This document shows, one piece after another, positions 16,721 through 43,457 of a stretch of DNA of 44,337 bases. The translations under genes were made by a program, and so were the position numbers. The first letter of the stretch is position 1. Each line of letters opens with the position of its first letter. The DNA is from Bacillus sp. PK3_68. Its GTDB lineage: Bacteria; Bacillota; Bacilli; Bacillales; Domibacillaceae. Under the pieces are notes generated by a model. It worked only from the letters and a program-made list of their open reading frames with translations. It searched no databases and had not been told where the DNA came from. The stretch is from assembly GCF_003600835.1 (NCBI RefSeq), contig NZ_NQYC01000002.1, forward strand, positions 307,501 to 351,837, read 5' to 3'.

Positions 16721-16750
16721 TTAATTCAAGAACCGGGCACTTTATCGGAG
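16721..16750 (+). repeat. GGGC palindromic repeat, copy 1
   Basis: TTAATTCAAGAACCGGGCAC followed by TTTATCGGAG. This is a member of the dispersed palindrome family with TTATTC-like ends and a GGGC core. It lies between the permease stop and its terminator. Confidence 0.6.
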
Positions 16751-16755
16751 AAAGA

Positions 16756-16803
16756 AAAAAGCCTAATTTCTCAATGTAAACGCTGAGAAATTGGGTTTTT
16801 TTA
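16756..16803 (+). terminator. Terminator of the Bce-type operon
   Basis: AAAAAAGCC, TAATTTCTCA and their complements form a long stem followed by TTTTTTT. The stem is related to the CCAATTTCTCAAC hairpins at 27262 and 34783. Confidence 0.85.
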
Positions 16804-16852
16804 ATATAGAACTTTGTTAACGTTGTAAATTCACATTTTCCTGATAGTACCC
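16783..16852. repeat. About 70-bp repeat shared with 36552-36622
   Basis: The segment GAGAAATTGGGTTTTTTTA, then TTAACGTTGTAAAT and CTGATAGTACCCC, recurs in the same order at 36552-36622 with about 70-75 percent identity by eye. It overlaps the terminator and the tail of the zinc-ribbon fragment. Either a dispersed repeat or two copies of a gene end. Confidence 0.5.
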
Positions 16853-16980
16853 CTTAAAGAACAATTGCTTTTACAGACAATCCATTTAGATTTATCAACT
16901 TCACATTCATAAATCATCCAGTTATCTGGACTATTCTCAAATAACTCCTTACATTTTGGACATCTAAAAAAGTATGGCCA
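16831..16980 (-). pseudogene. C-terminal fragment of a small zinc-ribbon protein
   Basis: The frame reads CPKCKELFENSPDNWMIYEC and later CKSNCSLRG. Two CxxC-like pairs suggest a zinc ribbon. There is no start; the 5' side is joined to an IS3 fragment near 16971-16980, so insertion of that element probably cut the gene. Confidence 0.45.
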
Positions 16981-17303
16981 TAGCCTTTTTTAAGATTCCT
17001 ACTTCCTGTTTTAACCGAAGGTTTTCTTTCTGAACATCTGCTAACTCTTTCGGTGTCGGGGCCTCTTTCTCCGAATTGATGGGGTTAAAGTCTTTCCCCA
17101 TTTATAAATCGTTACTTCTGATCCGCCATATTCGCTGCTTAGTTCTTTAAATGAGCTGCCGGAAGGATATAAATCCACAATTGTTTTCTTAAAGTCATCA
17201 TTATATTTTTTGCCTGTAGACTTACGTTCCAATTCGGACACATTCTCTCAAAATGATTGTAAGGGCTTAATTAAACTGTGACCACAAAACTATACTAACT
17301 CCA
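16971..17303 (-). mobile_element. 5' fragment of the IS3-family element found intact at 34948
   Basis: The reverse strand starts with the IS left end (TGGAGTTAGTATAGTTTTG) at 17303 and continues into orfA. It begins MSELERKSTGKKYNDDFKKT, as in the intact copy, then loses frame after residue 50 and ends at the sequence GGCTATGGCCATA. orfB and the right end are absent, so this is a dead remnant. Confidence 0.85.
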
Positions 17304-17530
17304 GCACTTAAACTAACGGGGGCTTTAGTTAAAGAAGGAATACTAGAAGGACTCTACAGGACAGGGTTCTTTTTGTTTGCCCCAAAATCAACACCATCGT
17401 TTAACAAATCTTTCGCTGTAAGGATAAGGTTACGTTCGTAAAAGTATACTTTTGCGCAAAAAACCTTTCAGTATGCCTAAGCAACTGAGGCGAAAAGGCT
17501 CAGGTCTGTTGTGATGTGACTTTGAATTGA
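17304..17530. other. Intergenic, no gene recognised
   Basis: Contains CTAACGGGGGCTTTAGTTAA at about 17312-17331, a segment I associate with Bacillus intergenic repeats, and an imperfect hairpin further on. No supported reading frame. Confidence 0.4.
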
Positions 17531-17645
17531 AATAAAGTTCGATCATTTATAAAAAAGTCTGATCGTTTATAATAAAGTTTGATCAAAAATCCTGTATTGA
17601 AATGCAGGTTTTTTTCTTATTCCGCAAATGGGCCATTTAATTGAA
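17531..17645 (+). repeat. Composite repeat: three 20-bp units, hairpin, GGGCC palindrome
   Basis: Three tandem 20-bp units start at 17531, 17551 and 17571 (AATAAAGTTCGATCATTTAT, AAAAAAGTCTGATCGTTTAT, AATAAAGTTTGATCAAAAAT). A hairpin with CCTGTATT/AATGCAGG and a T run follows at about 17591-17615. Then comes TTATTCCGCAAATGGGCC ending TTTAATTGAATAC at 17618-17645. The same order recurs at 24779, 41290 and 42490. Confidence 0.8.
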
Positions 17646-17712
17646 TACAACTTAAGTGTATATTTGTAACAGAAGATTTTTCATGCCTTATTAAGCAAGA
17701 AAGGAAATGAAA

Positions 17713-18192
17713 ATGCGAATTTTATCAGCCAATCAGCTACAAGAAAACAAGGTCAATGATTTTTTTATTGAGCATTGGGGAAGCCCGGAAATGGTCATTT
17801 CGAGCGGGATATTTGATTGTACAAAATTAAAAGGGTTTGCCGTAGTAAACGAAAAAGAAGTAATAGTTGGATACATAACATACGTTATTGGCTCGAATGA
17901 GTGTGAAATAATTTCTTTAGATAGCATTGAAGAGGGGAAAGGGATTGGATCGACTTTACTTCAAAAGGTGGAACAGACGGCAAAAGAAGAAGGCTGCAAT
18001 ATGATAAAACTGATCACCACGAATGATAATTTACATGCGTTAAAATTTTATCAAAAACGAGGCTATTATTTAACAGAACTTTATAGAGGTGCTGTTGTTG
18101 AGGCGAGAAAACTAAAGCCTGAAATTCCTGACCTGGGTAATGACGGTATCCCAGTTCACGATGAAATCCTTCTCACTAAACTGTTAGATTAA
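17713..18192 (+). CDS. GNAT-family N-acetyltransferase
   Basis: A 159-residue acetyl-CoA-dependent N-acetyltransferase. The GNAT core includes the beta4 strand and the acetyl-CoA loop IEEGKGIGSTLLQKVEQTAK, which follows the Q/RxxGxG/A pattern, and the C-terminal NLHALKFYQKRGYYL segment. ATG 17713 is preferred over 17707 because AAAGGA ends at 17705, which leaves a 7-base gap only for 17713. The C-terminal extension ending HDEILLTKLLD is common in Bacillus members. The substrate is unknown. It appears to be a single-gene unit. Confidence 0.9.
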   Translation: MRILSANQLQENKVNDFFIEHWGSPEMVISSGIFDCTKLKGFAVVNEKEVIVGYITYVIGSNECEIISLDSIEEGKGIGSTLLQKVEQTAKEEGCNMIKLITTNDNLHALKFYQKRGYYLTELYRGAVVEARKLKPEIPDLGNDGIPVHDEILLTKLLD

Positions 18193-18264
18193 CGAGCATA
18201 GTTAAAGTATTAGAAACAGCTATCTCAATGTCTACTAGAGTTCCAGCTGTTAGGAAAATCAATT

Positions 18265-18634
18265 ACTTCCAGCTTTTTTCTTATCTCTAAACTCTGGTTT
18301 AATGCGTCCATAAGCTTCTGATCTCGAGCCTCTAGTTTATGGTCTCTGTATTCTTGTTGCTTTTTCATCTGTTCAAGCAAGTTCTCATTCATTTCTCATT
18401 CTTTTCTCATCTCTTTTCGAAGTTGTACAAAGGCTTCTCCTTGCTTTTGTATGACTTCTGATAGATTTATGTTCACCTGTTTCTCATTCTCTTCTACAGT
18501 TATACTTATGGGTACTCTTAGACTCGACAAAGCATTATCTACTTCTTCAACATTCTTGCCCTCTGAATACAAGTTCCTAATTTTTTGGATAATCTCTATG
18601 GATTCATCTGAAACAAGGTAGGAGTTGTATTTTT
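18265..18634 (-). pseudogene. MerR-like/DUF3967 remnant, second copy
   Basis: The reverse strand encodes YLVSDESIEIIQKIRNLYSE, then GKNVEEVDNALSSLRVPISI and VNINLSEVIQKQGEAFVQLR. Stops and a frameshift fall in the coiled coil, and a DUF3967-like segment follows. It is closely similar to the remnant at 3065-3371 but extends further upstream. The start and the winged helix are missing. Confidence 0.75.
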
Positions 18635-18905
18635 TTCATGAGAAGATGAGGGGAATGCTTATTCATATACCGTCTGGTTGTTAACCAATTCCCCACTTTT
18701 TTATGTTGTTTTATTCTAGCAAATATAAGGGATAACCTCCACTTTTCTCATGAGAATTCTTATGAGTTTTCTCGCTTGCTCATGTATTTGGAAAATCAAT
18801 AATCATTCGTGCAAGGGCAGAAAAGAACTTCAATAATTAACTAAATGAGGGTATTGTGGTAATATGTGGGTTGCGGTGGTTGTGGGATAATTAGGAGGAA
18901 TTCAT
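18635..18905. other. Intergenic region upstream of a small membrane protein
   Basis: Contains TCTCATGAGAATTCTTATGA, a partly palindromic stretch near 18738-18757. No coding region recognised. The strong ribosome binding site TTAGGAGGAATTCA at 18890-18903 belongs to the next gene. Confidence 0.4.
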
Positions 18906-19190
18906 TTGTCGAGGGATAATATAAAAGGGTTAATTTTTCTTTCAATTTTATTAGTAGTAGGAGGTTTCATTCTAATGTTTTCAAGTATTTCTTTTGGAAC
19001 CTCTTTAGGCGATTCATGGCTTATGAAGCAAAACGAAGGGATGGCTGATACTCATCAATACAACATGATTATTAAGACATATATAAATAACTTTGTAATT
19101 ATTGGTAGTATATCGTTGTGCTTTGGCTTACTACTAGCTATGCTCACTTATTTTACACCTTTGTTTTTAAGAAAAAATAAGAGGAATTAA
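18906..19190 (+). CDS. Small membrane protein, two helices
   Basis: A 94-residue protein with two hydrophobic segments (GLIFLSILLVVGGFILMFSS and IIGSISLCFGLLLAMLTYF) joined by a polar loop of about 40 residues. It ends with a basic tail LRKNKRN. The UUG start at 18906 is supported by AGGAGGAATTCA just upstream. Family not recognised. Another small exported protein gene follows 65 bases downstream. Confidence 0.75.
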   Translation: MSRDNIKGLIFLSILLVVGGFILMFSSISFGTSLGDSWLMKQNEGMADTHQYNMIIKTYINNFVIIGSISLCFGLLLAMLTYFTPLFLRKNKRN

Positions 19191-19255
19191 AAAATATCCG
19201 GTTTCTATATACATAAACGGTTTTTAGTTAATGAAGAAGGGCATGGAGGGGTTTT

Positions 19256-19603
19256 TTGATAAAAAGAATGCTTTTGATTTTTATCACAGTACTTGTTCTT
19301 TTACTTCTCATAAGTTCACCGATTATATTTCAGGAAGGAAACCCTGTTCCACTTGCTATTGGCATGGCAAAGTTACAAATCACTGATGAGAGTGTTGTAG
19401 GAATCCCAGGTGAGACCAAGCGTTATTTGATAAGAGTTACTTCTGAAGGAGATCAACGATTTATTGATTTTATGGATTCAAAAGAGTGGAGATTTAAAGA
19501 CCAAGCGGGAGCCTCTCTCTTTTTTACCAAAAATAATAAAGACTTGGTTGTCGAAAGTGCCATGTATACAACAAAATATAGAGTTTATACATTTGTGCAA
19601 TAA
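19256..19603 (+). CDS. Small membrane-anchored protein
   Basis: A 115-residue protein with an N-terminal membrane anchor (MLLIFITVLVLLLLISSPII) and a polar domain of about 85 residues containing ETKRYLIRVTSEGDQRFIDF and the tail TTKYRVYTFVQ. The UUG start at 19256 has GGAGGGG about 6 bases upstream. Likely faces the cell exterior. No family recognised. Confidence 0.75.
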   Translation: MIKRMLLIFITVLVLLLLISSPIIFQEGNPVPLAIGMAKLQITDESVVGIPGETKRYLIRVTSEGDQRFIDFMDSKEWRFKDQAGASLFFTKNNKDLVVESAMYTTKYRVYTFVQ

Positions 19604-19731
19604 GATCTAATGCCACATAATGATGATCGTGTTGTACTCGAAATGATAAAGTCTAAGCTATTTTACTATGTGTTTATTGAATTAACAGAGAAGATCAGTT
19701 CGTAAGAGGCAAGTCATAGATGTGCAGAGAT

Positions 19732-19820
19732 AATAAAGTTCTTTAATTTACAATAAAGTCATTTAAAAAATAATATAGTTATTTATACTTGTGTTCTACA
19801 ACTGAGCCAAATTGTTTAAG
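19732..19820 (+). repeat. Composite repeat: three 20-bp units plus degenerate palindrome
   Basis: Units begin at 19732, 19752 and 19772, each starting AATAAAGT or AATATAGT. TTCTACAACTGAGCCAAATT at 19794-19813 then matches the GGGCC palindrome of other copies in the same position. No hairpin separates the two parts here. The copy ends about 17 bases before the DUF3923 gene. Confidence 0.7.
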
Positions 19821-19837
19821 AAATGAGGAATGATAAT

Positions 19838-20065
19838 GTGAAAAAACGATGGGCTTCTTGGTGGATTGCCAACATTATTTGGATTGTCCTTTTTGCAGCA
19901 GGAACAGTGGTTGTTTGGACAAGAGAGATTGATGGCGCTGGTGTTACTCAAACACCTGAGCTAAAACTAGTAGCTTTTATAGTATTATTGATTGCGTTTA
20001 TAATTCCACTAAGTATACAGATTGTATGGCTGGTTGTTAATTTGAAAAAGGCTAAAAAGAATTAA
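19838..20065 (+). CDS. DUF3923-family small membrane protein
   Basis: A 75-residue protein with two membrane helices (IANIIWIVLFAAGTVVVW and LVAFIVLLIAFIIPLSIQIV) separated by the conserved loop REIDGAGVTQTPELK, the hallmark of Bacillus DUF3923 proteins. It ends in a lysine-rich tail. The GTG start at 19838 was chosen because AGGA at 19826-19829 lies 8 bases upstream; an in-frame ATG at 19823 would overlap that site. The function of the family is unknown. Confidence 0.8.
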   Translation: MKKRWASWWIANIIWIVLFAAGTVVVWTREIDGAGVTQTPELKLVAFIVLLIAFIIPLSIQIVWLVVNLKKAKKN

Positions 20066-20177
20066 GCAAAAGGCGCAATTCTGAAAAAGGATAGGGGCTA
20101 TTTTTTCAATCTCCTGTTTGACTGTTCACAGTACAATTTATCTATATAAGAATAAGTAAAATATTGGAGGTAGTAGT

Positions 20178-21041
20178 TTGGATTCGATGACTCATACCTT
20201 ATTCGGACTAACATTGTACGGAGCAGTTGATAAAAGAAACTTGGATAAAAATCATAAACGTGCTTATTTGGTGACAACGGTAGGGGCAAGCTTAATTCCC
20301 GATATAGATGTTATTTCTCGTTTGTGGGATACTTCAGGGCAATATCAGATGTGGCATAGAGGTATCACGCATTCTATTTTCCTAACACCACTATGGGCAG
20401 TCTTATTCTTTTTGATTTGTGCTGCTATTTTCAAGATAAAAGATAAAAAGCTATTTTTACTTGGATGGTTGGCTGTGTTTATTCATGACACTAGTGATCT
20501 GTTTAATGCTTGGGGGACAGGTTATTTGGAACCTTTTTCAAATAATCGAATTACCTTCGGAACCATTCCCATTATTGATTTTGTATTCTGGATCATCATA
20601 GGGGTTGCTTTTATTTTATCGAAAAAAAAACAAACAAAAGTCGCCTTATTATTTTAAAATGGCTTGGGCATTTATGAGTCTTCATCTTATTATTCAAAGT
20701 ACTCAAGGGTTCCTCATTTATAACCAATATGATGAAAATATGATCAGGTCGCTCTTTCTGCTGATTTTGTCCCTTGGACATATTCAGTCATTGTTAAACA
20801 AAATGATACCGTGACTATTTTTCAGGATAATCTATTTCAGGAAGAGAAAGAACAATCTGTTTTATTTTCTAATAAAGATGCGGCTCTTGACTATTTATTC
20901 TCTCAACGTCCTGAAGCCAAAACACTCTATGAATGGTCACCTTTTGTTGCTTTAGTAGATGATGGGAAGGTGTTGGGATTATACGATCCACGTTTTTACC
21001 GTGATGGACAGTCGTTTCTATTTGAATATATTGAAAAATAA
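20178..21041 (+). pseudogene. YdjM/DUF457-type metal-dependent hydrolase, frameshifted twice
   Basis: A membrane-bound hydrolase of the YdjM (LexA-regulated inner membrane) type. The metal-ligand motifs are present: MTHTLFG at the start, LIPDIDV, HRGITHSIF and HDTSDLFNAWGT. The frame shifts near the A run at 20622-20630 (one A too many) and shifts back near 20770-20775. The middle part (PYYFKMAWAFMS) and the end (VKQNDTVTIFQDNLFQEE) therefore lie in different frames. The repaired length of about 287 residues is close to normal. Both changes sit in short homopolymers, so sequencing error is possible. The UUG start at 20178 follows GGAGG. Confidence 0.8.
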
Positions 21042-21188
21042 AACGGAGTAGGATTAACTAATGATGATTCTACTTCTCTCAAGTCATTTATGAACAGCAT
21101 TATATATATAAATTAGTCTATATCATAAATATCATAGGTAGAAAATGATCAATCTTTTTTATAAAAACCAACGTTAAATCTGCTGGAT

Positions 21189-21236
21189 AAGAATCGATTT
21201 TTGATTCCTCTTTTTTCAAAATCGATTCTTTTTTAT
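21189..21236 (+). terminator. Strong terminator with conserved loop
   Basis: AAGAATCGATTTT and AAAATCGATTCTT form a 13-bp stem with a T-rich tail. The loop part TTTTTTCAAAAT recurs in hairpins at 36459 and 41066. Part of the dispersed repeat set. Confidence 0.8.
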
Positions 21237-21644
21237 TTCTAGCAAAATGCTGGCTTATAGGGCAGTTTTGATCAAACTTACTTTAAAGCAACGCTTTCAT
21301 TAGAGATTCCCTTTCTGTTAAGTGCTATTTTGCATACCCAACTTTGAAGCTTGAGTGCTAAATTATTTACATTTAATCATTTTTAGAACTATTTAGATCT
21401 ACCTAGCAAAAAGGCGGCTGCTTATTGTTAAGTAATTACACTCCACTCCACTGTAGAAGATCAAAGGCCATTAAAGATGTGGTACATTTATTGAACTTCG
21501 GCAGCAGTACATTAAATAATAGAGAAGGATACTTTATGCTATGTAATTGTACATGCTAGAATTAAAGAAAGAAAAATAATTGAGGGACTTAAGATCGGAG
21601 TGGTAAAGAGAGTAGCCCAAATTAAAGTTTAGAAGGTGTTGTTT
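21237..21644. other. Intergenic region with repeat fragments
   Basis: Contains GGGCAGTTTTGATCAAACTT at 21260-21279, a reverse-orientation 20-bp unit, and AAGTGCTATTTTGCAT at 21322-21337, shared with 27236 and 34751. The last 200 bases carry no recognised motif except AGAAGGTG before the next gene. Confidence 0.45.
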
Positions 21645-23476: not shown

Positions 23477-23478
23477 AG

Positions 23479-23508
23479 CAGCCGTATCCAAAAATGGATA
23501 CGGCTTTC
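23479..23508 (+). terminator. Terminator after the DHODH-like gene
   Basis: AGCCGTATCC and GGATACGGCT form a 10-bp stem with a 6-base loop and a short T run, starting just after the stop codon. Confidence 0.9.
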
Positions 23509-23669
23509 ACATCAGATAATGATAGATCTGCAAGAAAATCCTCTCAGCATGCAATAACGTCCGTTTGCTGGAGATCAAAGATCTTTGAAGTTAGTTTCAC
23601 TCATTGAACTTTTAGCCTCCGCTATTTCAAAAAGAACATCATGAAAGGATAAGCAACTAAACCGAGTAC

Positions 23670-23703
23670 TTATTCAAGAATTCGGCTTGATCACTGAATA
23701 AAT
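23670..23703 (+). repeat. Palindromic repeat copy with TTATTCAAG/TGAATAA ends
   Basis: CTTATTCAAGAATTCGGCTT and then GATCACTGAATAAA. The ends are inverted copies; the core is TCGGC instead of GGGCC. Confidence 0.65.
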
Positions 23704-23751
23704 TAGGAGAGTTCTTTTCATTCATTTTATAAATAAGATTCCATAAAGCGT

Positions 23752-23782
23752 AAAAGCCCTGCTCCGTGTGAACAGGGCTTTT
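23752..23782. terminator. Bidirectional terminator
   Basis: AAAAGCCCTG and CAGGGCTTTT form a 10-bp stem with an 11-base loop. It serves the minus-strand gene remnant at 23826. Confidence 0.88.
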
Positions 23783-23825
23783 CGTAATTAAACAATATTC
23801 CTATCTTTCTTTATGATTTCAGAGA

Positions 23826-24029: not shown

Positions 24030-24106
24030 TTATAGTCTTTTATTTAAAGGTACAATAAAGTTGTTTTTCGCTGATGAATCCTCATTTTAGGATTTTCTAT
24101 AATCGT

Positions 24107-24756: not shown

Positions 24757-24778
24757 GTTTAAAAAATGCGAAGTTTAA

Positions 24779-24878
24779 AATAAAGTTATGACGTTAATAA
24801 AAAGTTAAATTAAAAATCCTGCTTTTGATATACAGGATTTTTCCTTGCTCCACAATCGGGTCAGAATGTTGAGTAAAG
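24779..24878 (+). repeat. Composite repeat: 20-bp units, hairpin, palindrome
   Basis: A unit AATAAAGTTATGACGTTAAT at 24779-24798 is followed by a partial unit. A hairpin AAAATCCTG..CAGGATTTTT spans 24813-24842. Then CTTGCTCCACAATCGGGTCA and GAATGTTGAGTAAAG complete the set. Same order as at 17531. Confidence 0.75.
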
Positions 24879-26466: not shown

Positions 26467-26538
26467 ATGTCCTCCGAGTCAAGATGAAAAATTTCTTCCA
26501 CAAAATGGTACGATTCTGCAAAATGGTGCGTAGCTTCC

Positions 26539-28734: not shown

Positions 28735-28775
28735 GTTATTCCATTAAATAAAGGTAGCCTGATTGTGGAACAAAA
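28735..28775. repeat. Palindromic repeat copy (TTATTCCATTA..TGGAACAA)
   Basis: GTTATTCCATTAAATAAAGG and TAGCCTGATTGTGGAACAAA, with inverted TTATTCCA/TGGAACAA ends. Followed by a further GCGCCC stretch at 28782-28788. Confidence 0.6.
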
Positions 28776-33220: not shown

Positions 33221-33252
33221 TTATTCCAGAAACGGGCGCTTTTCCGAAGTAA
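33221..33252 (+). repeat. Palindromic repeat copy (TTATTCCAGAAACGGGCGC)
   Basis: TTATTCCAGAAACGGGCGCT followed by TTTCCGAAGTAA. The right half is diverged. Confidence 0.6.
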
Positions 33253-34580: not shown

Positions 34581-34610
34581 CTTATTCAATTAAAGGCCCG
34601 ATTGCGGAAC
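34581..34610. repeat. Palindromic repeat copy (TTATTCAATTA..GGCCCG)
   Basis: TTATTCAATTAAAGGCCCGA followed by TTGCGGAACA. Followed by GAGCACCC about 10 bases on. Confidence 0.65.
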
Positions 34611-34734
34611 AGAAATAAAAGAGCACCCATCAATTTTCCTGTACGATAGATCAACAAAAACAGTACCATAAACGGCCGTTTATGGGGCTAATGATTACTT
34701 TAGCTGAAAAATACATGTCACTTTAGGAGTTATT

Positions 34735-34858: not shown

Positions 34859-35009
34859 GCAATCAGTATTAGCCGCCTTATTCAACAAGCCTTTTAGTAT
34901 TTTGTATATCCTTCTCGCTCATTCGAGACCCTAAGCTATCATTAATCTGGAGTTAGTATAGTTTCATGGACACAGTTTAATTAAGTCCTTACAATTATTT
35001 TGAGAGGAT

Positions 35010-35294
35010 GTGTCCGAATTGGAACGTAAGCCTACAGGCAAAAAATATAATGATGACTTTAAGAAAACGATTTTGGATTTATATCATTCCGGCAGCTCAG
35101 TTAAAGAATTAAGCAGCGAATATGGCGTATCAGAAGTAACGATTTATAAATGGGTGAAAGACTTTACCCCTATCAGTTCGGAGAAAGAGGCCCCGACACC
35201 GAAAGAGTTAGCAGATATTCAGAAAGAAAACCTTCGGTTAAAACAGGAAGTAGGAATCTTAAAAAAGGCTATGGCCATATTCGCGAAAAAGTAA
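35010..35294 (+). CDS. IS3-family transposase OrfA
   Basis: A 94-residue protein with an N-terminal HTH (YNDDFKKTILDLYHSGSSVK, later YGVSEVTIYKWVK) and a C-terminal leucine-rich helix (NLRLKQEVGILKKAMAIF) for multimerisation. The GTG start at 35010 follows GAGAGGA. It ends AAA AAG TAA; the A-rich site is where a -1 frameshift would join it to OrfB. Confidence 0.92.
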   Translation: MSELERKPTGKKYNDDFKKTILDLYHSGSSVKELSSEYGVSEVTIYKWVKDFTPISSEKEAPTPKELADIQKENLRLKQEVGILKKAMAIFAKK

Positions 35295-36169
35295 CCGAAG
35301 CAGAGCTTAACGATTTTATTGAGGAACACAAAGATCAATACCCTATCCAGAAAATGTGCGAAGTACTGGCCGTGCCAAGAAGTAGCTACTATGATTCTCT
35401 TGAAAAAACGACCTCAAAACGTGAAATAGAAAACCGGGAACTCACGAAGGAAATCCAACGGATTCACCTGGAAAGTAAGGCTCGTTATGGCGCTCCAAAA
35501 ATTCATAAAACCTTATTAAACAGAGGGTTTTTCCTAAACCTAAAGCGCGTCCAGCGCCTAATGAAAAAGGCCGACATCCGTTCAATTACCAAGAAGAAGT
35601 ATCGTCCCTATCCCTCAAAGGAAAAGGTTGTGCAGCTGGACAATCTTTTAAAGCGAGACTTCTCTACCTGCACAATCAATGAAAAATGGGTGGCGGATAT
35701 TACCTATATCCCTACGGCAAGAGATGGCGGGTGCTATTTGGCCTCTGTATTGGATCTGCACCCGAAAAAAATCGTTGGCTATTCTTTTTCTCATTCTATG
35801 ACGTTCGAATTGGTGATCGAAGCACTTCAAAATGCCTGTTTTTCTCAAAAGCCCCGAAAGGGCTTAATTCTTCATACCGATCTTGGCTCGCAATATACCA
35901 GCAGTGAGTTTACTCAGCATGTTCAAAAACAAGGAATCAAGCAATCTTTCAGCCAGAAAGGCTGTCCTTATGATAATGTCTGTATAGAGTCATTTCACGC
36001 TATATTAAAGAAAGAAGAAGTTTATCATACGCAATACACGGACTATCTAGCTGCAAAGCTGGCCATATTTCAGTTTATAGAAGGCTGGTATAACCGAAAG
36101 AGAATTCACAGCGGTATTGGCTATCAAACACCTCAAGCCATTGAGGATCAAATTAGAAGAACAGCTTAA
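35285..36169 (+). CDS. IS3-family transposase OrfB (DDE integrase)
   Basis: About 294 residues expressed as a frameshift fusion with OrfA from the GAAAAAG site at 35285-35291. It has an HTH_21 segment (ARYGAPKIHKTLLNRGFFLN) and the rve core with all three catalytic residues: Asp in WVADITYIPT, Asp in LHTDLGSQYTS and Glu in VCIESFHAILKKE. It ends with the typical WYNRKRIHSGIGYQTPQAIE. It looks fully functional and could act on the remnant ends elsewhere. Confidence 0.93.
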   Translation, partial: EKVTEAELNDFIEEHKDQYPIQKMCEVLAVPRSSYYDSLEKTTSKREIENRELTKEIQRIHLESKARYGAPKIHKTLLNRGFFLNLKRVQRLMKKADIRSITKKKYRPYPSKEKVVQLDNLLKRDFSTCTINEKWVADITYIPTARDGGCYLASVLDLHPKKIVGYSFSHSMTFELVIEALQNACFSQKPRKGLILHTDLGSQYTSSEFTQHVQKQGIKQSFSQKGCPYDNVCIESFHAILKKEEVYHTQYTDYLAAKLAIFQFIEGWYNRKRIHSGIGYQTPQAIEDQIRRTA

Positions 36170-36228
36170 GACTTAACTTTTTTGTGTCCAAATTATTGAC
36201 TCAAATCCAGCAGCTTTTGTAAATTTAA

Positions 36229-36368
36229 AAGAAAGTTGTACTGTTTTGAAGAAAGTTAAACCGTTGTACACATGGATTTTTGTTTACTGTTAAGCAAATA
36301 TGGATTTGAAATAAAATCACGATGTTTATAAGAAAGACCTGAAGTTTTAAAGAAAGTCACGACGCTTT
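36229..36368 (+). repeat. 20-bp tandem units, diverged (two blocks)
   Basis: Units of exactly 20 bases start at 36229 and 36249 (AAGAAAGTTGTACTGTTTTG, AAGAAAGTTAAACCGTTGTA) and again at 36309, 36329 and 36349 (AATAAAATCACGATGTTTAT and two AAGAAAG units). Same period as at 17531, 19732, 41290 and 42490, but with AAGAAAGT in place of AATAAAGT. Confidence 0.7.
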
Positions 36369-36709
36369 ATCTCTTCAACCAAAGAATTTTAAATACGTTT
36401 TAATCAAACTTCTTTATAAAACTAAAGGATCATTCAAAAAGAAACGAATCGAATCTGATCAATTTTTTTCAAAATGGATTCTTCTTATTTACCATAAAAT
36501 ACGGGGTGTAAGATGTTTTTGATCAAACTTTATTTTAAGGCAATAATTTTACGAGAAGTTGGGCTTTTTAGTATTGGAATTTCCTTAACATTGTAAATCT
36601 GCGTTTTGCTGATGGTACCCCTGTACAAAAAAGGGTAATATGAAGGTACTAAAAAATTCACTTACAATTCCACTGGTTTTAAAATATAAAACTTTGCTTA
36701 TTTCGTTCT
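36369..36709. other. Intergenic with reverse 20-bp units and repeat of 16783
   Basis: AATCAAACTTCTTTATAAAA at 36402-36421 and GATCAAACTTTATTTTAAGG at 36520-36539 are reverse-orientation units. CTGATCAATTTTTTTCAAAA at 36456-36475 is the conserved hairpin loop. 36552-36622 repeats 16783-16852. No gene seen. Confidence 0.55.
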
Positions 36710-37636
36710 TCACCTGTAATCTTTGTATAATTTTTTTGTGTCATCCAAACACTTAATAAATTTTAGAATTAACTCTTTAGGATAGATAATACGGACCTTA
36801 TTTCCAAAACTCATAATTTGTGCTATAGCTTGATCAATGGTGTAATAATCTTTTTTTACGATGATTGTTCCATCTGGATTATTGACTGTTTCATCTTCCT
36901 GAAAGTTATCTAGTACCTGTGCCCTCATCTCCCGGCTAAATTGGAGACAAACCGTGAATGGCCTTATACCACTTCCAAGTTTATCATCTTCTTTTTCGTA
37001 TATATTTTCAATCGTATATGGACGCCTGGTAAAATATTGATTTATGTTATATGTTTCAATTATCCGAGTTAATTTAAATACTCTAAGTTCATTTCGTAAT
37101 AAACAATAAGCCCAAGTGTACCAATGATAATCTTTTAAAAAAACTCCCATCGGTTCAATATCTCGTTCTGTTTCATTTCCTTTATGGTCTACATAGCGAA
37201 TCTTAATTACATTACAATTTTGAATTGACTTGTATATTGTTTGAATATGCTGCGAACTATTATTCGAATGTGAAATTTGTAACTGGATGTTTTTATCTTG
37301 CGTAGGTACTGAGTCAATTAAATAATTTATTTTCGAAATCAATTCATTGATATCTTCAAATCCAGTAGCCTTTTCAATGCTTTTCAACGCCCACTGTATG
37401 GAAAGTAATTCATCTAAAGTTAGATACTTTTTATCCAGTTTGAAACCATCCATTAATTCATAACCGCCTTCTTGTCCAGGAAGCGATACAATGGGAATGC
37501 CTGCACGATTAAGAGAATCGATATCTCTATATATCGTTCTCTCCGATACTTCAAAGTACCTCGATAATTCAACGGCCTTTATTCTTTTCCTATGAATCAG
37601 TAATACAATGATCCCTAATAACCGGTCGATTTTCAA
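36710..37636 (-). CDS. YafY-type WYL-domain transcriptional regulator
   Basis: A 308-residue regulator with an N-terminal DeoR/HTH_11 domain (RYFEVSERTIYRDIDSLNRA, IPIVSLPGQEGGYEL) and a WYL domain in the C-terminal half. The WYL core reads IKIRYVDHKGNETERDIEPM and KDYHWYTWAYCLLRNELRVF (here YTW in place of WYL). The start codon overlaps the stop of the UvrA-like gene (ATGA), so the two are translated together. Probably an autoregulator responding to a ligand linked to that protein's drug substrate. Confidence 0.9.
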   Translation of the reverse strand: MKIDRLLGIIVLLIHRKRIKAVELSRYFEVSERTIYRDIDSLNRAGIPIVSLPGQEGGYELMDGFKLDKKYLTLDELLSIQWALKSIEKATGFEDINELISKINYLIDSVPTQDKNIQLQISHSNNSSQHIQTIYKSIQNCNVIKIRYVDHKGNETERDIEPMGVFLKDYHWYTWAYCLLRNELRVFKLTRIIETYNINQYFTRRPYTIENIYEKEDDKLGSGIRPFTVCLQFSREMRAQVLDNFQEDETVNNPDGTIIVKKDYYTIDQAIAQIMSFGNKVRIIYPKELILKFIKCLDDTKKLYKDYR

Positions 37637-39890
37637 GGTTCATCCTCCTGTATATCGTTTCGTAGATATTGTGCGGTTAGGGAGTTACTACTCGTTACAA
37701 AATCATGTGGTATACCTGCGAACATAATATCTCCTCCTTTTTTTCCGCCGCCAGGTCCAAGATCAATAATCCAGTCTGCTTGTTTCATTATATCTAGATT
37801 GTGTTCAATTACAATCACAGTGCTACCGTTATCAACCAAACGATTTAGGAGAGATGATAAATGTCTAACATCGGACATGTGAAGTCCAGTTGTCGGCTCG
37901 TCCAGAACATAAATGTTACCAGATCGGTGCAGCTCGCCAGCTAATTTAATTCTTTGACATTCCCCACCCGATAATGTATTTAACGGCTGACCTAATGTTA
38001 TATAGTCTAATCCTACTTCTGATAATACTTTTAAAGTGGAAACCACTTCTTTCCCCCTAAAAAATTGAAGTGCCTCTAATACTGTCATGTCTAATACATC
38101 TGAAATAGATTTCCCATCTAACTTATACTGAAGAACTTCATCTTTGAACCGTTTCCCATTACATGTTTCACAAGTCGTTCTAATACTCTCAAGAAATGCA
38201 AGGTCTGTATTAATAAATCCGCTTCCTTGGCATTCGGAGCAGGCACCTGTCGAGTTAAAACTAAAAAGTGACTTACTTACTTTGTTAGCAGATGCAAAGG
38301 AATTTCGAATTGCATCCATCATACCCGTATAAGTCGCTGGAGTAGACCGAATCGAGGTGCTCACTGACTTTTGGTCGATAACAATAGCATCTGGATGCTG
38401 TTCTAAAAGTTCGTCAAAAATCAATGTACTTTTCCCTGATCCAGCTACGCCAGTGATTACAGTAAGAACACCACAAGGAATATGAACAGTAACATTCTTT
38501 AGGTTATGTTTGGAGGCTTCGACTACGGAAAGGTATCCGTTAAAATTACGGGTTTCTTTTTTAAATGATTGTTTAGTCCTCATATATCTTCCAGTTAGTG
38601 TATCAGCGTCGTATAATCCAAGAAGATTTCCTTCATAGACAATTTCACCGCCATTTGTACCTGCACCCGGTCCAACATCGACAATATGATCAGCAATTTT
38701 AATAACATCTTTGTCATGTTCAACCACTATAACAGTGTTTCCTTTGTCTCGGAGTTTTTGCAGCATCCGATTGAGTTTGTGTACATCACGGGGGTGTAAT
38801 CCAGTGCTTGGTTCATCAAAAATATACATCATATCCGTTAAACTGCTATTAAGATGTCGTATCATCTTTACACGTTGTGATTCTCCCCAGACAAGGTCGA
38901 TGTTTCACGATTTAGCGTAAGATAATCGATCCCCATGTCCACGAGAGATTTCAACCTTCTTGCCATATTTGAAATGATTGGTTCTACAATTGGATTCTTG
39001 ATCATTTCTATTATTTTCATCAATTCACTTACTTCCATCGCTGCAAATTGAGCAATGTTATAACCATTAATTTTGCAATTTAATACTTCTTGACTTAACC
39101 GGGTTCCGTTGCATACAAAACAATCTTTTAAGGTAATAAAATTCTTAACATTATTTGATAATTGGTTGGTTTCTTTTTCTAAGTAAATACGCTTAAACCT
39201 ATCTACAACCCCTTCAAAATACTTGATAGGTTCATTTTTCAAGGGCAATACGAGGTTCTGGTCCTTACCATGTAATAACGTTTGCCACTCTGTATCCGTG
39301 TAATTTATTAACTTTTTATCCGGATCAAATATACCTGAGACCAAGTGTTTCTGCCAATACCAAGTACCAGCAGCGAAAGTGGAAAACAAAACGGCTCCTT
39401 CATTAAGCGATTTCGTCCTATCGAATAACTTCTCTATATTCGGCTCTATATTTCGTCCAATTCCCTGACACTTCGGACACATCCCTTTCGGATTGTTGAA
39501 AGAAAAAACATCAGATTCGCCAATAAAGGGCTTTCCAATACGAGAAAATAGTAATCGCAATAATGAATAAATATCTGTGACCGTACCAAGCGTTGAACGT
39601 ACATTTCCTCCTAAGCGTCTTTGATCAATCACCACAGAGGGGGAAAGATTCTCAATGGACAATGCATCTGGTTGACTGTATGTTGGTAATCGGTTTTGCA
39701 TATACGTTGTAAAAGTCTGATTCAACTGGCGTTGGGCTTCCTTACTTATTGTGTCGAATACAATTGATGATTTTCCAGATCCAGAAACCCCTGTAAATAC
39801 AGTGATTTTCCTTTTTGGAATATTTAGTGTTATATTTTTTAAGTTATTTTCCCTTAAGCCAACAAGTTTAATAAATTGATTTTCAGTCAT
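37633..39890 (-). pseudogene. UvrA-like drug-resistance ABC ATPase, one-base frameshift
   Basis: A two-ATPase protein of the shortened UvrA (class II, DrrC-like) group, about 752 residues if repaired. Walker A motifs are GVSGSGKSS and GVAGSGKST. Zinc-finger pairs CPKCQGIG, CFVCNGT, CSECQGSG and CETCNGKR are present, as is the second signature TLSGGECQR. The first signature is broken: TLSGENHNV where TLSGGESQRV is expected, explained by one missing G in the CCCC run at 38885-38888. ATG 39890 follows GGGAGTGG. Such proteins protect DNA or remove intercalating antibiotics; target unknown. The WYL regulator gene overlaps its end. Confidence 0.85.
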
Positions 39891-39939
39891 ATTAACCACT
39901 CCCGTAAAGCTAATATATAAAGGGTATTATACAGAAGTG

Positions 39940-39961
39940 CCCTGACAGCATTATGTCAGGG
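39940..39961. terminator. Hairpin CCCTGACA/TGTCAGGG
   Basis: An 8-bp perfect stem with a 6-base loop, 50 bases upstream of the UvrA-like gene start. It could be an operator-like palindrome or a weak terminator; there is no T run. Confidence 0.45.
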
Positions 39962-40285
39962 ATGTAAAAAACAAATGAAATTCTTAGGTGTAAACGTGGT
40001 TCAATACTGTAAATTGGGGCTAATTGTTTGAAGTGCAGAGAGTTTTAATATTTGTATTCACTTCTTTAAGGTTACATGCATTTCTTGAAATTTTTCAATT
40101 CCTTAAGATATCAAGTTTTAAAAGATAATTAATTAGTACATCAAAAGAGCTGCATGGTTATATTCCACATGATAATTCGATTTATGACTCTATAAATATT
40201 AATTTGATGCGGGATGGGACGGTCCCCATAAAATGTAACATGGCTCTTATATTTTTATATCAAGATTAAATCACTTTATTATCTC
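39962..40285. other. Intergenic, no gene recognised
   Basis: AT-rich, without the dispersed repeat modules. GGGATGGGACGGTCCCCATA at 40210-40229 holds a short GGGACGGTCCC inverted repeat. Confidence 0.4.
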
Positions 40286-40315
40286 TTTACATATGATATA
40301 GAATTTTTGTATAAA
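40286..40315 (+). promoter_or_regulatory. Sigma-A-like promoter of the MEDS gene
   Basis: TTTACA at 40286-40291 and TATAAA at 40310-40315, with an 18-base spacer, 48 bases upstream of the start codon at 40363. Confidence 0.55.
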
Positions 40316-40362
40316 TAGGTAAAAATGCTACAATGAATAATAATACACATAGAGGGATTATA

Positions 40363-40917
40363 ATGAAAAACTCGATTATAGAAGTAATCAAAGATTTGAA
40401 AAAAGTGAAAAGGGGACATATTTGTTATTTCTATAGTAATGAAATAACTTACATAAATAATGTCGTTTCCTTTATAGCTACAGGGATTAGGAACGGTGAC
40501 CACATTTTACTTGTCGAAAATGATAGAAATATTCTTCTTATAAACAAGCGGTTAGAAAAAGTGCTGAGTAAGAAAGAATGGACCTTCTTGCATGTTATGA
40601 ATAATTATGATTTTTACTATTTTAATAAGAATTTTAATCCTCATACGATTGTCAATCATTTCTTAGAAAACATAGAACCGTTCCTAAAAGAAGGGGCTTC
40701 AATTTGTACTTGGGGACTTATCGAATGGGGAGAAGATAAAGAAATTCACCAATGTATAGAGGAATATGAAAAAGAAGTGGATAAAATAACAAATGAAAAA
40801 GGGATTATTTCGGTATGTGCGTATAATGCTGGGAGAACACCAGATTCATTAAAAGAACTGTTAATAAAATGCCACGGGATAACACTGACAGATGGTGAAG
40901 CGGTAAAATTGAAATAA
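40363..40917 (+). CDS. MEDS-domain (DcmR-like sensory) protein
   Basis: A 184-residue protein that consists almost entirely of a MEDS domain. The start reads VKRGHICYFYSNEITYINNV, followed by VSFIATGIRNGDHILLVEND and the later SICTWGLIEWGEDKEIH. The fold is RecA-like, and in other proteins it is attached to kinases or HTH domains as a sensor of organic compounds or as an anti-sigma partner. Here it stands alone with no output domain. ATG 40363 follows AGAGGGA. No neighbour suggests its partner. Confidence 0.85.
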   Translation: MKNSIIEVIKDLKKVKRGHICYFYSNEITYINNVVSFIATGIRNGDHILLVENDRNILLINKRLEKVLSKKEWTFLHVMNNYDFYYFNKNFNPHTIVNHFLENIEPFLKEGASICTWGLIEWGEDKEIHQCIEEYEKEVDKITNEKGIISVCAYNAGRTPDSLKELLIKCHGITLTDGEAVKLK

Positions 40918-40946
40918 ATACAATATAAAGTGAAGTTTCATCCAAT

Positions 40947-41160
40947 CACTATTCTATAAGCAACACGGGCCTCAATAAAGTTTCCTTCGTTAAGATGGTA
41001 ACGACTGTAAATTCGAATAAAGTTTCGACTGTTTTTAAAATCCCATACGTATCTACAGAGAACGCCTCCATTTTGATCAGTCTTTTTTCAAAATGGAGTT
41101 TTTGTAGTTGTTAAATATAGGTTTATGACCTCACTTTTATTAAACTTTATTTCAAAGCTA
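40947..41160. repeat. Composite repeat block with units in both orientations
   Basis: ATTCTATAAGCAACACGGGC and CTCAATAAAG at 40951-40980 form a palindrome copy. AATAAAGTTT units occur at 40974 and 41017. A reverse unit TTAAACTTTATTTCAAAGCT at 41140-41159 matches the complement of 42484-42503. The terminator hairpin at 41066 lies inside. Confidence 0.6.
41066..41103 (+). terminator. Terminator with conserved loop
   Basis: CTCCATTTT and AAAATGGAG form a 9-bp stem around GATCAGTCTTTTTTC, followed by TTTTTG. The loop sequence is shared with 36459 and in part 21204. Confidence 0.8.
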
Positions 41161-41289
41161 CATCTTGTAGGATTCTTTTTGAATTTTATTCTGATTGTTT
41201 TGTATGCTTCTGCTATCTGTATTGTTATATTGCTTTTGACGATATGTATTAACGGAAAGCATAGAAAACCTGTCATCTTGTACAGAGAT

Positions 41290-41391
41290 AATAAATTTAT
41301 TTAATTTACAATAAAGTCGTTTAAATAATAATAAAGTTGTTTAAAAAATGTGAGTCATCCTATTCAACAAATGGGCCAGATTGTTGAGTAA
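41290..41391 (+). repeat. Composite repeat: three 20-bp units plus best-preserved palindrome
   Basis: Units start at 41290, 41310 and 41330 (AATAAATTTATTTAATTTAC, AATAAAGTCGTTTAAATAAT, AATAAAGTTGTTTAAAAAAT). TATTCAACAAATGGGCCAGA followed by TTGTTGAGTA at 41361-41390 is a clean palindrome. The S66 peptidase gene starts 57 bases downstream. Confidence 0.85.
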
Positions 41392-41447
41392 CCTCTTTGA
41401 AAAATGGATATTTATGTTAAAATAATACAAAAGCAAGGGGGCTGCAC

Positions 41448-42461
41448 ATGATAAAATATCCGTTTTTAGAAAAAGGGACGACGATAGGAGTTACAGCGCC
41501 TTCATCTGGCGTACCCACTGAACTACATGAATTGTTGAAAGCTGCATGTAGTCGTATGGAAACGAAGGGTTATAAGGTCATCTGTGGTGATACTGCTTGG
41601 ACTCAAGACAAGGCAAGGTCTGCATCTGCTAAGAAGCGTGCAGAAGAGTTTAATAAAATGATGCTCGATGAAGATATACATATCATTATTCCGCCTTGGG
41701 GTGGAGAACTACTTATTGAAACGCTTGAATATATTGACTTTGAAAATATCCAAACCAAATGGGTATTAGGTTACTCAGATATTAGTCTTTTATTATTGGC
41801 TATCACATTAAAAACAGGTATAGCTACTGCACATGGAACGAATTTAGTAGATTTAAGAGGAGAGTATTCTGATGATACGACAGCAATGTGGCAGAAAGTT
41901 TTATCCCTAAAAAAGGGTGAATCAATACTACAATGTTCATCAGACAAATATCAAAAGGAATGGCAGTTTGATAAACCAACTCCATATGTTTTTAATTTTA
42001 CAGAAAAAACAGAATGGAAATCAATTTCAAATAACAGAATTAAAATACAGGGTCGTTTACTTGGCGGATGTATTGATACTATCAGACATTTAATTGGGAC
42101 AACATTTGGGGAAGTGAAAAAATTTAAAGAATATTACATAAAAGGTGAATCTGTTATATGGTTTTTCGAAAATTGTGAGTTATCCACTACCGCTTTGCGT
42201 CGTTCCCTCGTGCAAATGAAATTGGCTGGATGGTTTGAAAATTGTTCAGGTGTTATGTTCGGGAGAAGTCCGGCTAATACACCTGTTAGAAATTATACAG
42301 TTGAAGATGTTTATAGAGAGCTTTCTGAAGAACTTCAAATACCTATTATATATGACATTGATTGTGGTCATGTTCCACCACAAATGACATTAATAAATGG
42401 AGCGCATGCCGAAGTTGAATCGGATAGCGGTAAAGGGGAAATTTTACAATATTTTAAATAA
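41448..42461 (+). CDS. S66-family serine peptidase (LD-carboxypeptidase/MccF-like)
   Basis: A 337-residue peptidase of family S66. It has the N-terminal GTTIGVTAPSSG motif, the nucleophile Ser in VLGYSDISLLLL, the Glu in IWFFENCELST and the His in YDIDCGHVPPQ. The GYSD and FENCE contexts and the length are closer to MccF (which cleaves the peptide-nucleotide antibiotic microcin C) than to LdcA, so self-immunity or antibiotic inactivation is possible; peptidoglycan recycling is the alternative. The ATG at 41448 follows AAGGGGG. It is a single gene. Cytoplasmic; no signal peptide. Confidence 0.92.
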   Translation: MIKYPFLEKGTTIGVTAPSSGVPTELHELLKAACSRMETKGYKVICGDTAWTQDKARSASAKKRAEEFNKMMLDEDIHIIIPPWGGELLIETLEYIDFENIQTKWVLGYSDISLLLLAITLKTGIATAHGTNLVDLRGEYSDDTTAMWQKVLSLKKGESILQCSSDKYQKEWQFDKPTPYVFNFTEKTEWKSISNNRIKIQGRLLGGCIDTIRHLIGTTFGEVKKFKEYYIKGESVIWFFENCELSTTALRRSLVQMKLAGWFENCSGVMFGRSPANTPVRNYTVEDVYRELSEELQIPIIYDIDCGHVPPQMTLINGAHAEVESDSGKGEILQYFK

Positions 42462-42489
42462 AGATATATAGCTCAAATTGTAGCTTTGA

Positions 42490-42640
42490 AATAAAGTTCG
42501 ATAATTTATAATAAAGAATGATCATTTGGAATAAAGTCCGATAATTTATAAAAGAGTTTAATACAATTAGATTGACCATGTTGTTTGACAATTAAGTTGT
42601 TTCAATCATTTTATTCCATTAACGGGCCAAATTATTGTTT
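42490..42640 (+). repeat. Composite repeat: four 20-bp units plus palindrome
   Basis: Units start at 42490, 42510, 42530 and 42550 (AATAAAGTTCGATAATTTAT, AATAAAGAATGATCATTTGG, AATAAAGTCCGATAATTTAT, then a shorter one). TTATTCCATTAACGGGCCAA at 42611-42630 and ATTATTG complete the array. About 40 bases of other sequence lie between the two parts. Confidence 0.8.
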
Positions 42641-42832
42641 TTTAGGGCAGCTCTCGTGCTGATTGCTGGCTATCGGTGGCGTCGTATCGTAGTAGGTACG
42701 TCTCTTGTGCTTGTCATCGTGATGATCGGGGCGAGATTTATTAGGTTATTGGTGCTGTATAGTGAATGTAGAAATATTATAAGAAATACCTGCAGAACAG
42801 TTATTGTGAAAATTAACCATCTATACACCTGA
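42641..42832 (+). pseudogene. Possible membrane-protein fragment
   Basis: A GC-richer stretch encodes RAALVLIAGYRWRRIVVGTS followed by LVLVIVMIGARFIRLLVL, without a plausible start codon or ribosome binding site. The composition differs from its surroundings. It looks like a piece of a membrane protein left by a rearrangement, but could be chance. Confidence 0.25.
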
Positions 42833-42853
42833 CTAGATCGGAGAAAAAATAGA

Positions 42854-43303
42854 GTGGAAAAAGTAGTCGAATATAGAAAACTAGCAATCGGTGATAAGAG
42901 TAGTTTTTCTAAATTAGTATTATTGTTTAACAAAGAATTTGAGTCACAAGATTTGAACTACGTAAACGATAAGAACATAAGAAATCTTATAGCTAAACCC
43001 GATTTTATTTGTTTTGTTGCTTTTATTGGTGATGAAGTTGTTGGTGGTTTAACTGGTTACGAATTACTGATGTATGACCAGGAGGGTTCTTCGATGTATT
43101 TATATGACTTGGCGGTCGATAAGAACTATCAGCGTCGTGGAATTGGAAGTAATTTAGTTGGTGAATTAATGGATTATTGCAGATCAAAAGATATAAAGGG
43201 TTTATTTGTTCAAGCTGATGTGGAAGACCAACATGCTATTGAATTCTACAATAAAATTGGTGGGGATGATTCGGAGACGGTACAGTTTTCGTTTCATCTT
43301 TAA
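42854..43303 (+). CDS. AAC(3)-I-like GNAT acetyltransferase
   Basis: A 149-residue acetyltransferase. The acetyl-CoA site reads DKNYQRRGIGSNLVGELM and the family-typical segments are SMYLYDLAVDKNYQRRGI and GLFVQADVEDQHAIEFYNKI. The YDLAV..RRxGI..VQAD pattern matches the AAC(3)-I (gentamicin/fortimicin) acetyltransferase group, including many chromosomal members whose drug activity is untested. The GTG start at 42854 follows CGGAGA. Aminoglycoside modification is a hypothesis, not shown by the sequence. Confidence 0.87.
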   Translation: MEKVVEYRKLAIGDKSSFSKLVLLFNKEFESQDLNYVNDKNIRNLIAKPDFICFVAFIGDEVVGGLTGYELLMYDQEGSSMYLYDLAVDKNYQRRGIGSNLVGELMDYCRSKDIKGLFVQADVEDQHAIEFYNKIGGDDSETVQFSFHL

Positions 43304-43399
43304 GATAGTGACCTAAATCTGTTGATAGTCTGGAGTAAGAGCGATGTAAGCAATTAAATTAGACCACCATATCGTAAAGGTAGAATAATCCAGATTACT

Positions 43400-43457
43400 T
43401 ATTCAAGAAAAGGGCGCGATTGTTGAATAAAACTTAGATTTTTAAACGACTTTATTG
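43400..43457 (-). repeat. Palindrome plus one 20-bp unit, reverse orientation
   Basis: TTATTCAAGAAAAGGGCGCG and ATTGTTGAATAA form the palindrome at 43399-43430. TTTTTAAACGACTTTATTGT at 43439-43458 is a unit on the minus strand. Read on the minus strand the order (unit, then palindrome) is the same as elsewhere. Confidence 0.75.

Follow-up and report, generated by a model that had tools for sequence, protein, structure and literature searches.

A candidate integron-like gene-cassette system of the Bacillales, with an apparently orphaned set of palindromic sites in Bacillus sp. PK3_68

Introduction

Within a stretch of 44,337 nucleotides, Bacillus sp. PK3_68 (assembly GCF_003600835.1, contig NZ_NQYC01000002.1, positions 307,501 to 351,837; this whole stretch is hereafter the window) carries many copies of a short palindrome that lies mostly between genes, and the question raised by the locus is what such a repeat does there. 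Here we describe, by computation, the sites themselves, the arrays that they form, their orientation, the points at which homology breaks within them, their linkage to a recombinase and their co-variation with it. The palindromes are very probably the double-stranded recombination sites of an integron-like gene-cassette system of the Bacillales with a dedicated recombinase of ~280 amino acids (aa), the set in the window being, in that reading, orphaned and partly decayed.

Integrons are the textbook platform of gene capture. A survey of complete genomes gives only one complete integron in the Firmicutes, in Limnochorda, together with a few orphan clusters (PMC9024848). Titles and abstract openings of the open-access literature in PubMed Central yielded no description of the present system in Bacillales. 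If the reading holds, the order would possess a dedicated system for cassettes (site matches occur in 176 of the 199 genomes sampled), which would explain how single accessory genes come to be collected. It would also open a new pool of cassette genes to study, bring in a new recombinase whose short sites are coded by their cores, and allow a clean test of whether the capture of cassettes arose more than once.

Palindromic sites of the window

With a symmetric weight matrix, 16 copies of a 32-bp palindrome were found at 14 bits or more, all within 16.7-44 kb of the window, the end of which is also the end of its contig. They start at 16722, 17305, 17617, 19791, 23670, 24845, 26493, 26539, 27301, 29543, 33221, 34826, 41360, 42611, 43399 and 43906; those at 16722, 19791 and 42611 are weak (14.7-15.4 bits). 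Chance accounts for very little of this, as dinucleotide-shuffled sequence gave 3 matches of at least 14 bits in 1.77 Mb with an earlier matrix and 3 of at least 15 bits in 1.36 Mb with the final one. The initial annotation, which had proposed a dispersed palindrome family with no copy in 1-16.7 kb, was right on both points. Of its 16 copies counted by eye, 13 were recovered to within 3 bases; those near 28735 and 34581 possess both arms around an abnormal core, the one near 40951 found no support, and the copies at 17305, 26493 and 43906 had been overlooked. The GGGCC or GGGCGC core was correctly recognized, and the length of about 30 bases is refined here to 32 bp, namely two 13-bp arms and a 6-bp core.

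The sites are clustered, since 16 of the 25 sites of at least 17 bits in the first 884 kb scanned lie inside the window; a second cluster of 14 sites occurs at C1:638-661 kb. A perfect-palindrome pattern allowing up to 3 mismatches had 0 matches in the same genome, a half-site pattern had 1 match in the window against 0.62 expected, and Rfam at gathering thresholds returned only rRNA and tRNA in the window.

Structure of the sites

The consensus of 70 sites is TTATTCAACTAACGGGnGCnTTnnTTGAAnAA, in which the cores GGGTGC, GGGCGC, GGGGGC, GGGCCA, GGGCAG and a few others are seen. Compensated changes in the two arms had earlier been taken as a sign of selection on a hairpin; they proved to be no more frequent than chance pairing predicts, the match between left and right arms being 0.592 as observed and 0.592 when arms were re-paired within their locus (z -0.02; 775 sites, in loci with at least 2 sites). 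The exception is arm position 10, alone of 13 in showing an excess of pairing (z 3.5). Each half-site is conserved on its own account, as would be expected for protein binding as a symmetric pair.

Some sites are doubled, with 81 same-direction pairs lying 33-65 bases apart, most commonly in the order GGGCGC then GGGCCA (15 pairs) or GGGGGC then GGGCAG (7 pairs). The stretch between the two cores has a mean folding energy of -12.4 kcal/mol, compared with -8.9 kcal/mol for shuffled letters (81 pairs), and a loose test, made without a control, found a T run in 70% of the double sites. They may be terminator-carrying linkers that join two core classes.

Cassette arrays and their cargo

A single-core pattern with up to 3 mismatches matched 70 of the 199 genomes of the order, while its reversed control gave 0 matches throughout. 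Twenty stretches of up to 20 kb were then examined, most of them chosen where matches lay close together and one (L116) chosen blindly, and these held between 0 and 24 sites of at least 17 bits. Dense arrays (19 sites in L106, 17 in L107 and 24 in L110) consist of small genes alternating with sites, mostly in one direction and with about one gene between neighbouring sites. Across all loci, 661 of 715 pairs of neighbouring sites have the same orientation, 31 are opposite and 23 are undecided.

The gene content between sites was measured in 303 intervals, defined as 250-1500 bp between two sites of like orientation and holding an open reading frame (ORF) of at least 80 aa; intervals flanked by sites of differing orientation were left out of these ORF counts. 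The largest ORF runs in the direction of the sites in 271 of the 303, and 218 hold a single ORF. In the 271 site-direction intervals the median distance is 100 bases from the site to the start codon and 29 bases from the stop codon to the next site. Cassette proteins were sampled by listing 30 at random out of 244 single-ORF cassettes and scanning the first 20. At E 0.001, 13 of these have a Pfam match and 7 have none; the families are GNAT (three times), NUDIX, HIT, RibD_C and pyridoxamine oxidase-like, together with some of unknown function. When ten cassette proteins were scanned with PADLOC, the product of a HIT-family cassette gene (L106:9633-10061) matched ThsC2 (E 1e-11), so cassettes may carry defence genes.

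Arrays also occur on complete plasmids. Plasmid pBY2G20 of Metabacillus dongyingensis holds 17 sites in 24.8 kb and CP053689.1 holds 26 in 24.8 kb, each in a single direction throughout; a plasmid of Sporosarcina psychrophila holds 5.

CP053689.1 (L280) is filed as a plasmid of Arthrobacter citreus NEB 577, of the Actinomycetota, and bears a Bacillales-type array. Its other plasmid matches, to Peribacillus, Niallia, Mesobacillus and Cytobacillus, fall for the most part in a stretch with a group II intron. The species label looks wrong.

Homology breaks at site centres

The points at which homology between loci ends were compared with the positions of the sites. For 55 loci that had been collected when no recombinase was yet known, duplicates, matches shorter than 100 bases and ends within 60 bases were dropped; of the 231 homology ends left, 38 lay no more than 25 bp from a site centre in both partners, where 50 random shifts gave 0.22 on average and 2 at most. 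Two larger sets gave the same picture: 36 of 1030 ends against 0.66 expected (matches shorter than 150 bases or of at least 98.5% identity dropped; overlapping fetches counted twice), and 339 of 11249 ends against 5.7 expected and a maximum of 11 in 30 shifts. The last set includes many recombinase loci, whose own gene yields related matches, and was made after dropping matches shorter than 100 bases, those above 99% identity and longer than 800 bases, and ends within 80 bases of the end of a locus.

Of 101 one-sided junctions, 93 could be oriented. In these the partners agree in one arm and in the variable half of the core, while on the side that switches the arm matches at about chance level. 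Where the shared side follows the GGG (46 junctions), the match at arm positions 1-13 is close to that of chance (about 0.1 higher at 10, 12 and 13) and identity begins at position 17; where it precedes the GGG (47 junctions), the far arm again matches at about chance level and the variable core half is still common. The GGG itself is too conserved to inform on sharing. Since core positions 17-19 are common from either side, the two partners carry one and the same core and are set apart by the arm that is exchanged. We infer an overlap of exactly 6 bp.

As an example, L110 holds one cassette twice (800-1373 and 16284-16848), with both ends at sites. Among three cassettes shared between named plasmids, chosen from 21 records, a GNAT cassette of Metabacillus and Peribacillus ends inside a site in both plasmids at its right end only, a hydrolase cassette of Metabacillus and Priestia does so at its left end only, and the match to a Cytobacillus plasmid has no site on the Cytobacillus side.

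The associated tyrosine recombinase

A search of ten genomes with Pfam PF00589 revealed tyrosine recombinases of ~280 aa near the arrays. One fully supported branch of the tree sets 19 members of this family apart from 15 Xer-like rows (13 of them different). With the profile NF040815 the family scores 201-216 bits against a cut-off of 220, and it lies far below the XerC, XerD and IntI cut-offs. Residues R138, K162, H229, R232, H255 and Y264, which we take to be the catalytic R-K-HxxR-H-Y set of tyrosine recombinases, are conserved in all 17 aligned members. A fold model of moderate confidence (predicted local distance difference test 82.7, predicted template modelling score 0.57) has its best matches among XerA and XerD structures, followed by IntI4, with template modelling scores of about 0.5, so that the predicted fold does not separate Xer from IntI.

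The family was found at E 1e-75 in 38 of the 199 genomes of the order, in some as broken pieces only. Of 299 sampled genomes of the phylum, 6 reach E 1e-60; one belongs to the order and another, with 376 bits, to the class, and the remaining four score 226-251 bits. Sixteen plasmid records match the recombinase, several of them in pieces; nine matches, at 57-72% identity, are from Metabacillus, Peribacillus, Sporosarcina, Niallia, Cytobacillus and the plasmid filed as Arthrobacter. In Bacillus sp. PK3_68 itself no member of the family was found, the closest proteins being two Xer-like ones at 157 and 147 bits. In L143 (G090:C29), a recombinase copy with several stops lies inside an array, intermediate between intact and lost.

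Linkage was assessed in 80 named recombinase loci, the best 80 of at least 466 relatives, of which 75 hold sites of at least 17 bits. A matrix made before these loci were fetched found 475 sites in them and 0 in shuffles (7 of these loci have DNA in common with those on which it was trained). The final matrix, partly trained on the same loci, found 525, against 3 in 0.76 Mb of the PK3_68 chromosome and 0 in 55 kb of loci of other tyrosine recombinases; two separate shuffles gave 0 of 17 bits and 1 of 19 bits. Measured from the ends of the similarity match, a site follows the recombinase within 150 bases in 38 of the 80 loci and precedes its start within 300 bases in 26, with both in 11; the corresponding counts for other ORFs of at least 200 aa in the same loci are 87, 82 and 25 of 539. 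The recombinase gene thus often resembles a cassette itself, though not always.

Sites also vary with the recombinase, which falls into clade A (44 loci) and clade B (36 loci). T-type cores predominate in 4 of the 32 loci of clade A and in 22 of the 28 of clade B that have at least two such sites (P 2.6e-7, an optimistic value because the loci are related). At arm position 10, A is the commoner base in clade A (380 A and 166 T in 578 half-sites) and T in clade B (372 T and 79 A in 472 half-sites); some sites of undecided orientation were left out of these core and arm counts. Among 64 loci with at least 3 oriented sites, the recombinase gene runs in the direction of the array in 34 of 34 for clade A and in the opposite direction in 29 of 30 for clade B.

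Distribution across genomes

An all-core sequence model (R1) was built from sites of the order and applied with matches at E 0.05, at most 36 candidates per genome being scored both inside and outside the order. It matched the 176 of 199 genomes mentioned above within the order and 17 of 196 outside it, 13 of these once. Genomes that carry the recombinase have a median of 11.5 matches (38 genomes), compared with 6 in the 161 non-carriers (P 4.8e-6). A strict pattern had no exact match in viral contigs, which says little.

Proposed mechanism

The two inverted arms of ~13 bp would be the binding sites of two recombinase subunits around the 6-bp core, and the Xer-like enzyme, presumably cutting within the core, would exchange strands there between two sites of equal core. 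A cassette would then hold, between a right half-site and a left half-site, in most cases a single gene; exchange would excise, insert or reorder such units, by way of circular intermediates, and their capture would build the one-orientation arrays seen on chromosomes and plasmids. Equal-core exchange driven by the recombinase, as known for pdif sites (PMC13141974), is the most likely process.

On a broader view, we think it probable that the Bacillales own a second, independently evolved integron-like platform, in which an Xer-derived integrase, often cassette-like in its own array and on plasmids, shuffles single genes via double-strand 13-6-13 sites, with core classes serving as compatibility groups and short terminator-carrying linkers joining two classes. 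It may be one of the main routes by which accessory genes move in environmental Bacillaceae and Caryophanaceae, which belong to a phylum where ordinary integrons are very rare.

Several observations weigh against the cassette reading. Only 3 of the 20 examined stretches are dense, though most were chosen for clustering; 5 of the 80 recombinase loci have no site, and the one strong relative outside the order (G281) has none within 3.2 kb. The single-core pattern shows no enrichment in recombinase carriers (15 of 38 against 55 of 161 non-carriers, P 0.33), and 138 of the 161 genomes without the recombinase still hold site matches, many of them thus holding sites alone, like orphan attC clusters. 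Neither a recombination event nor a circle was observed, nor any gain or loss between strains, and an empty site sought in two plasmids of Peribacillus frigoritolerans was not seen, the same five sites standing in the same places in both. The P values are optimistic, since homology ends and loci are related. The window itself is a poor array, with wide, uneven spacing and mixed orientation, and in one of its three measured intervals with an ORF the gene is reversed.

Comparison with known systems and alternative explanations

Lacking the features of IntI and attC as well as the alternating orientation of dif modules, the system is best read as neither an integron nor a dif module, and would work like both. 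Among its parallels are the dif modules of Acinetobacter plasmids (pdif, recombined by XerCD), which likewise have two arms and a 6-bp core or spacer, equal cores at exchange, and genes as modules (PMC13141974); the core is common at both types of junction here too, while the arms switch. It could accordingly be proposed that the host XerC/XerD pair recombines the sites and that the ~280-aa protein is a mere passenger, and the many genomes with sites and without this protein fit such a view. We regard it as quite improbable on indirect evidence: the PK3_68 genome has a separate dif-like sequence (one copy, with 3 mismatches to the Bacillus dif), and the cores, arm position 10 and the orientation of the array track the clade of the dedicated protein. 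Sites of dif modules alternate in orientation, giving C and D modules (PMC13141974), whereas the sites here are nearly uniform in orientation by the neighbour counts given above, the arrays occur on chromosomes as well as on plasmids, and a dedicated recombinase is linked to them. Xer/XerA-type simple tyrosine recombinases share the predicted fold and the catalytic residues with the present family, which differs in being linked to cassette arrays and not to a single dif site.

A mobile repeat of the repetitive extragenic palindromic (REP) or miniature inverted-repeat transposable element (MITE) kind, inserted between genes, would explain a palindrome that is mostly intergenic and present in many copies, and the initial annotation had suggested a REP- or bcr-like element. 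This is very improbable: homology breaks inside the repeat and not at its outer edges, a tyrosine recombinase is linked, and the tags GTAG or CGTC, named for REP elements in the title of PMC3733652, occur in the outer 8 bases of the arm in 0 of 807 sites. The bcr1 repeat, specific to the Bacillus cereus group and also intergenic and stem-forming, is 147-167 bp long (PMC2267715) against 32 bp here, and the present sites match across most genomes of the order; bcr1 is set apart by this length and distribution, with no bcr1 sequence compared. The earlier suggestion of mobility was right in spirit, and a protein binding site had been among its options; a recombination site between gene cassettes is the better reading.

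The notion that classical integrons (IntI, attC) have been overlooked in Bacillales scarcely deserves belief, despite a closely similar layout of tandem one-gene cassettes in one orientation, accessory cargo, a tyrosine recombinase and orphan clusters without one (CALIN, clusters of attC sites lacking integron-integrases), and despite IntI4 being the next match of the predicted fold after Xer proteins. With the IntI profile TIGR02249, 0 of 17 genomes were above the cut-off, and three members of the family scored 97-104 bits against 265, matching in two stretches; an insertion in the catalytic domain is the mark of IntI (PMC8138268). Sites of attC type are conserved in their folded structure (PMC9024848), whereas the arms of these 32-bp palindromes do not co-vary, and exchange falls at their centre. 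The R-box motifs RYYYAAC and GTTRRRY are both present in only 10 of 807 sites, and the recombinase gene here often adjoins sites within the array. The idea was therefore dropped on the profile scores, the absent arm co-variation, the exchange at the centre and the scarcity of R-boxes.

RNA hairpins between genes, either terminators or processing sites, have just as little to recommend them, as the arms do not co-vary and the terminator-like stem that some double sites enclose sits between two cores and not within one site. Recombination sites of a dedicated enzyme remain our preferred explanation of the palindromes.

Features of the window

The sites of the window and the genes between them are as follows.

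16722..16753, + strand: weak site, core GGGCAC, 14.7 bits
17305..17336, + strand: site, core GGGGGC, 29.5 bits; homology to C2:151051-151207 of the same genome stops here
17617..17648, + strand: site, core GGGCCA, 29.0 bits
17707..18192, + strand: GNAT acetyltransferase (Pfam), cargo gene downstream of site 17617
19791..19822, no strand assigned: weak site, 15.3 bits
23670..23701, no strand assigned: site, weak core, 17.0 bits
24107..24661, - strand: isochorismatase-family gene between sites 23670 and 24845, opposite to the site orientation
24845..24876, + strand: site, core GGGTCA, 24.1 bits
25171..26299, + strand: small multidrug resistance (SMR) gene, second ORF and TetR gene (Pfam for the first and last)
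26493..26524, + strand: site, core TGGTAC, 23.0 bits
26539..26570, - strand: site, core GGGCGC on the - strand, 22.1 bits
27301..27332, - strand: site, core GGGCGC on the - strand, 32.8 bits
27337..28629, - strand: EcsB-like cargo gene (Pfam), split into two ORFs; 97% in G002, 90% in G009
28736..28773, - strand: probable decayed site from inspection of the sequence, two arms, core about 12 nt, below 14 bits
29543..29574, + strand: site, core GGGGCA, 24.3 bits
31664..33136, + strand: beta-lactamase-fold serine hydrolase (Pfam), cargo gene
33221..33252, + strand: site, core GGGCGC, 29.6 bits
33758..34432, - strand: AlkZ-related cargo gene (Pfam)
34582..34612, - strand: probable decayed site from inspection of the sequence, two arms, core 5 nt, below 14 bits
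34826..34857, orientation undecided by core score: site, 22.5 bits; L143 homology starts at its centre
41360..41391, + strand: site, core GGGCCA, 32.0 bits
41448..42461, + strand: peptidase S66 family cargo gene (Pfam)
42611..42642, + strand: weak site, core GGGCCA, 15.4 bits
42854..43303, + strand: GNAT acetyltransferase cargo gene (Pfam)
43399..43430, + strand: best site of the window, core GGGCGC, 40.1 bits
43906..43937, + strand: site, core GAGTAC, 21.0 bits

Homology also breaks at two further sites of this set. Homology to G009, of another genus of the family, starts at the centre of site 27301 in both sequences, and a longer match to G002 continues past that site. At site 43399, homology starts at or near the centre in C1:68978 of the same genome, in G002 and in G003, and the left arms differ where the site is present.

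As the genome has sites and no family recombinase, the window is read as an orphaned, partly decayed array. The EcsB-like gene and a UvrA-like gene (37633-39899) are each split into two ORFs, which is a sign of decay; given these split genes and the wide spacing, the array is probably an old one that lacks its enzyme. A trio of tyrosine recombinases had been suspected in the three overlapping ORFs at 36710-39899; these were dropped as candidates, since Pfam identified WYL and ABC/UvrA-like proteins.

A module of ~187 bp (43412-43598), starting at the centre of site 43399, recurs at C1:68978, in G002 and in G003; it is perhaps a promoter or small RNA cassette. An IS3-type element (34948-36209, transposase ORFs 35010-36169) has several near-full copies in G198 and one in G003, and window positions 16973-17303 match DNA beside IS3-type copies, the match ending at site 17305. 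A repeat of ~100-150 bp, distinct from the 32-bp sites, is present in three copies (21136-21292, 36397-36541 and 41067-41163), which match the same places in other genomes. Finally, a 20-bp tandem repeat occurs at two distant spots, 42485-42556 and 17526-17577, each close to a site.

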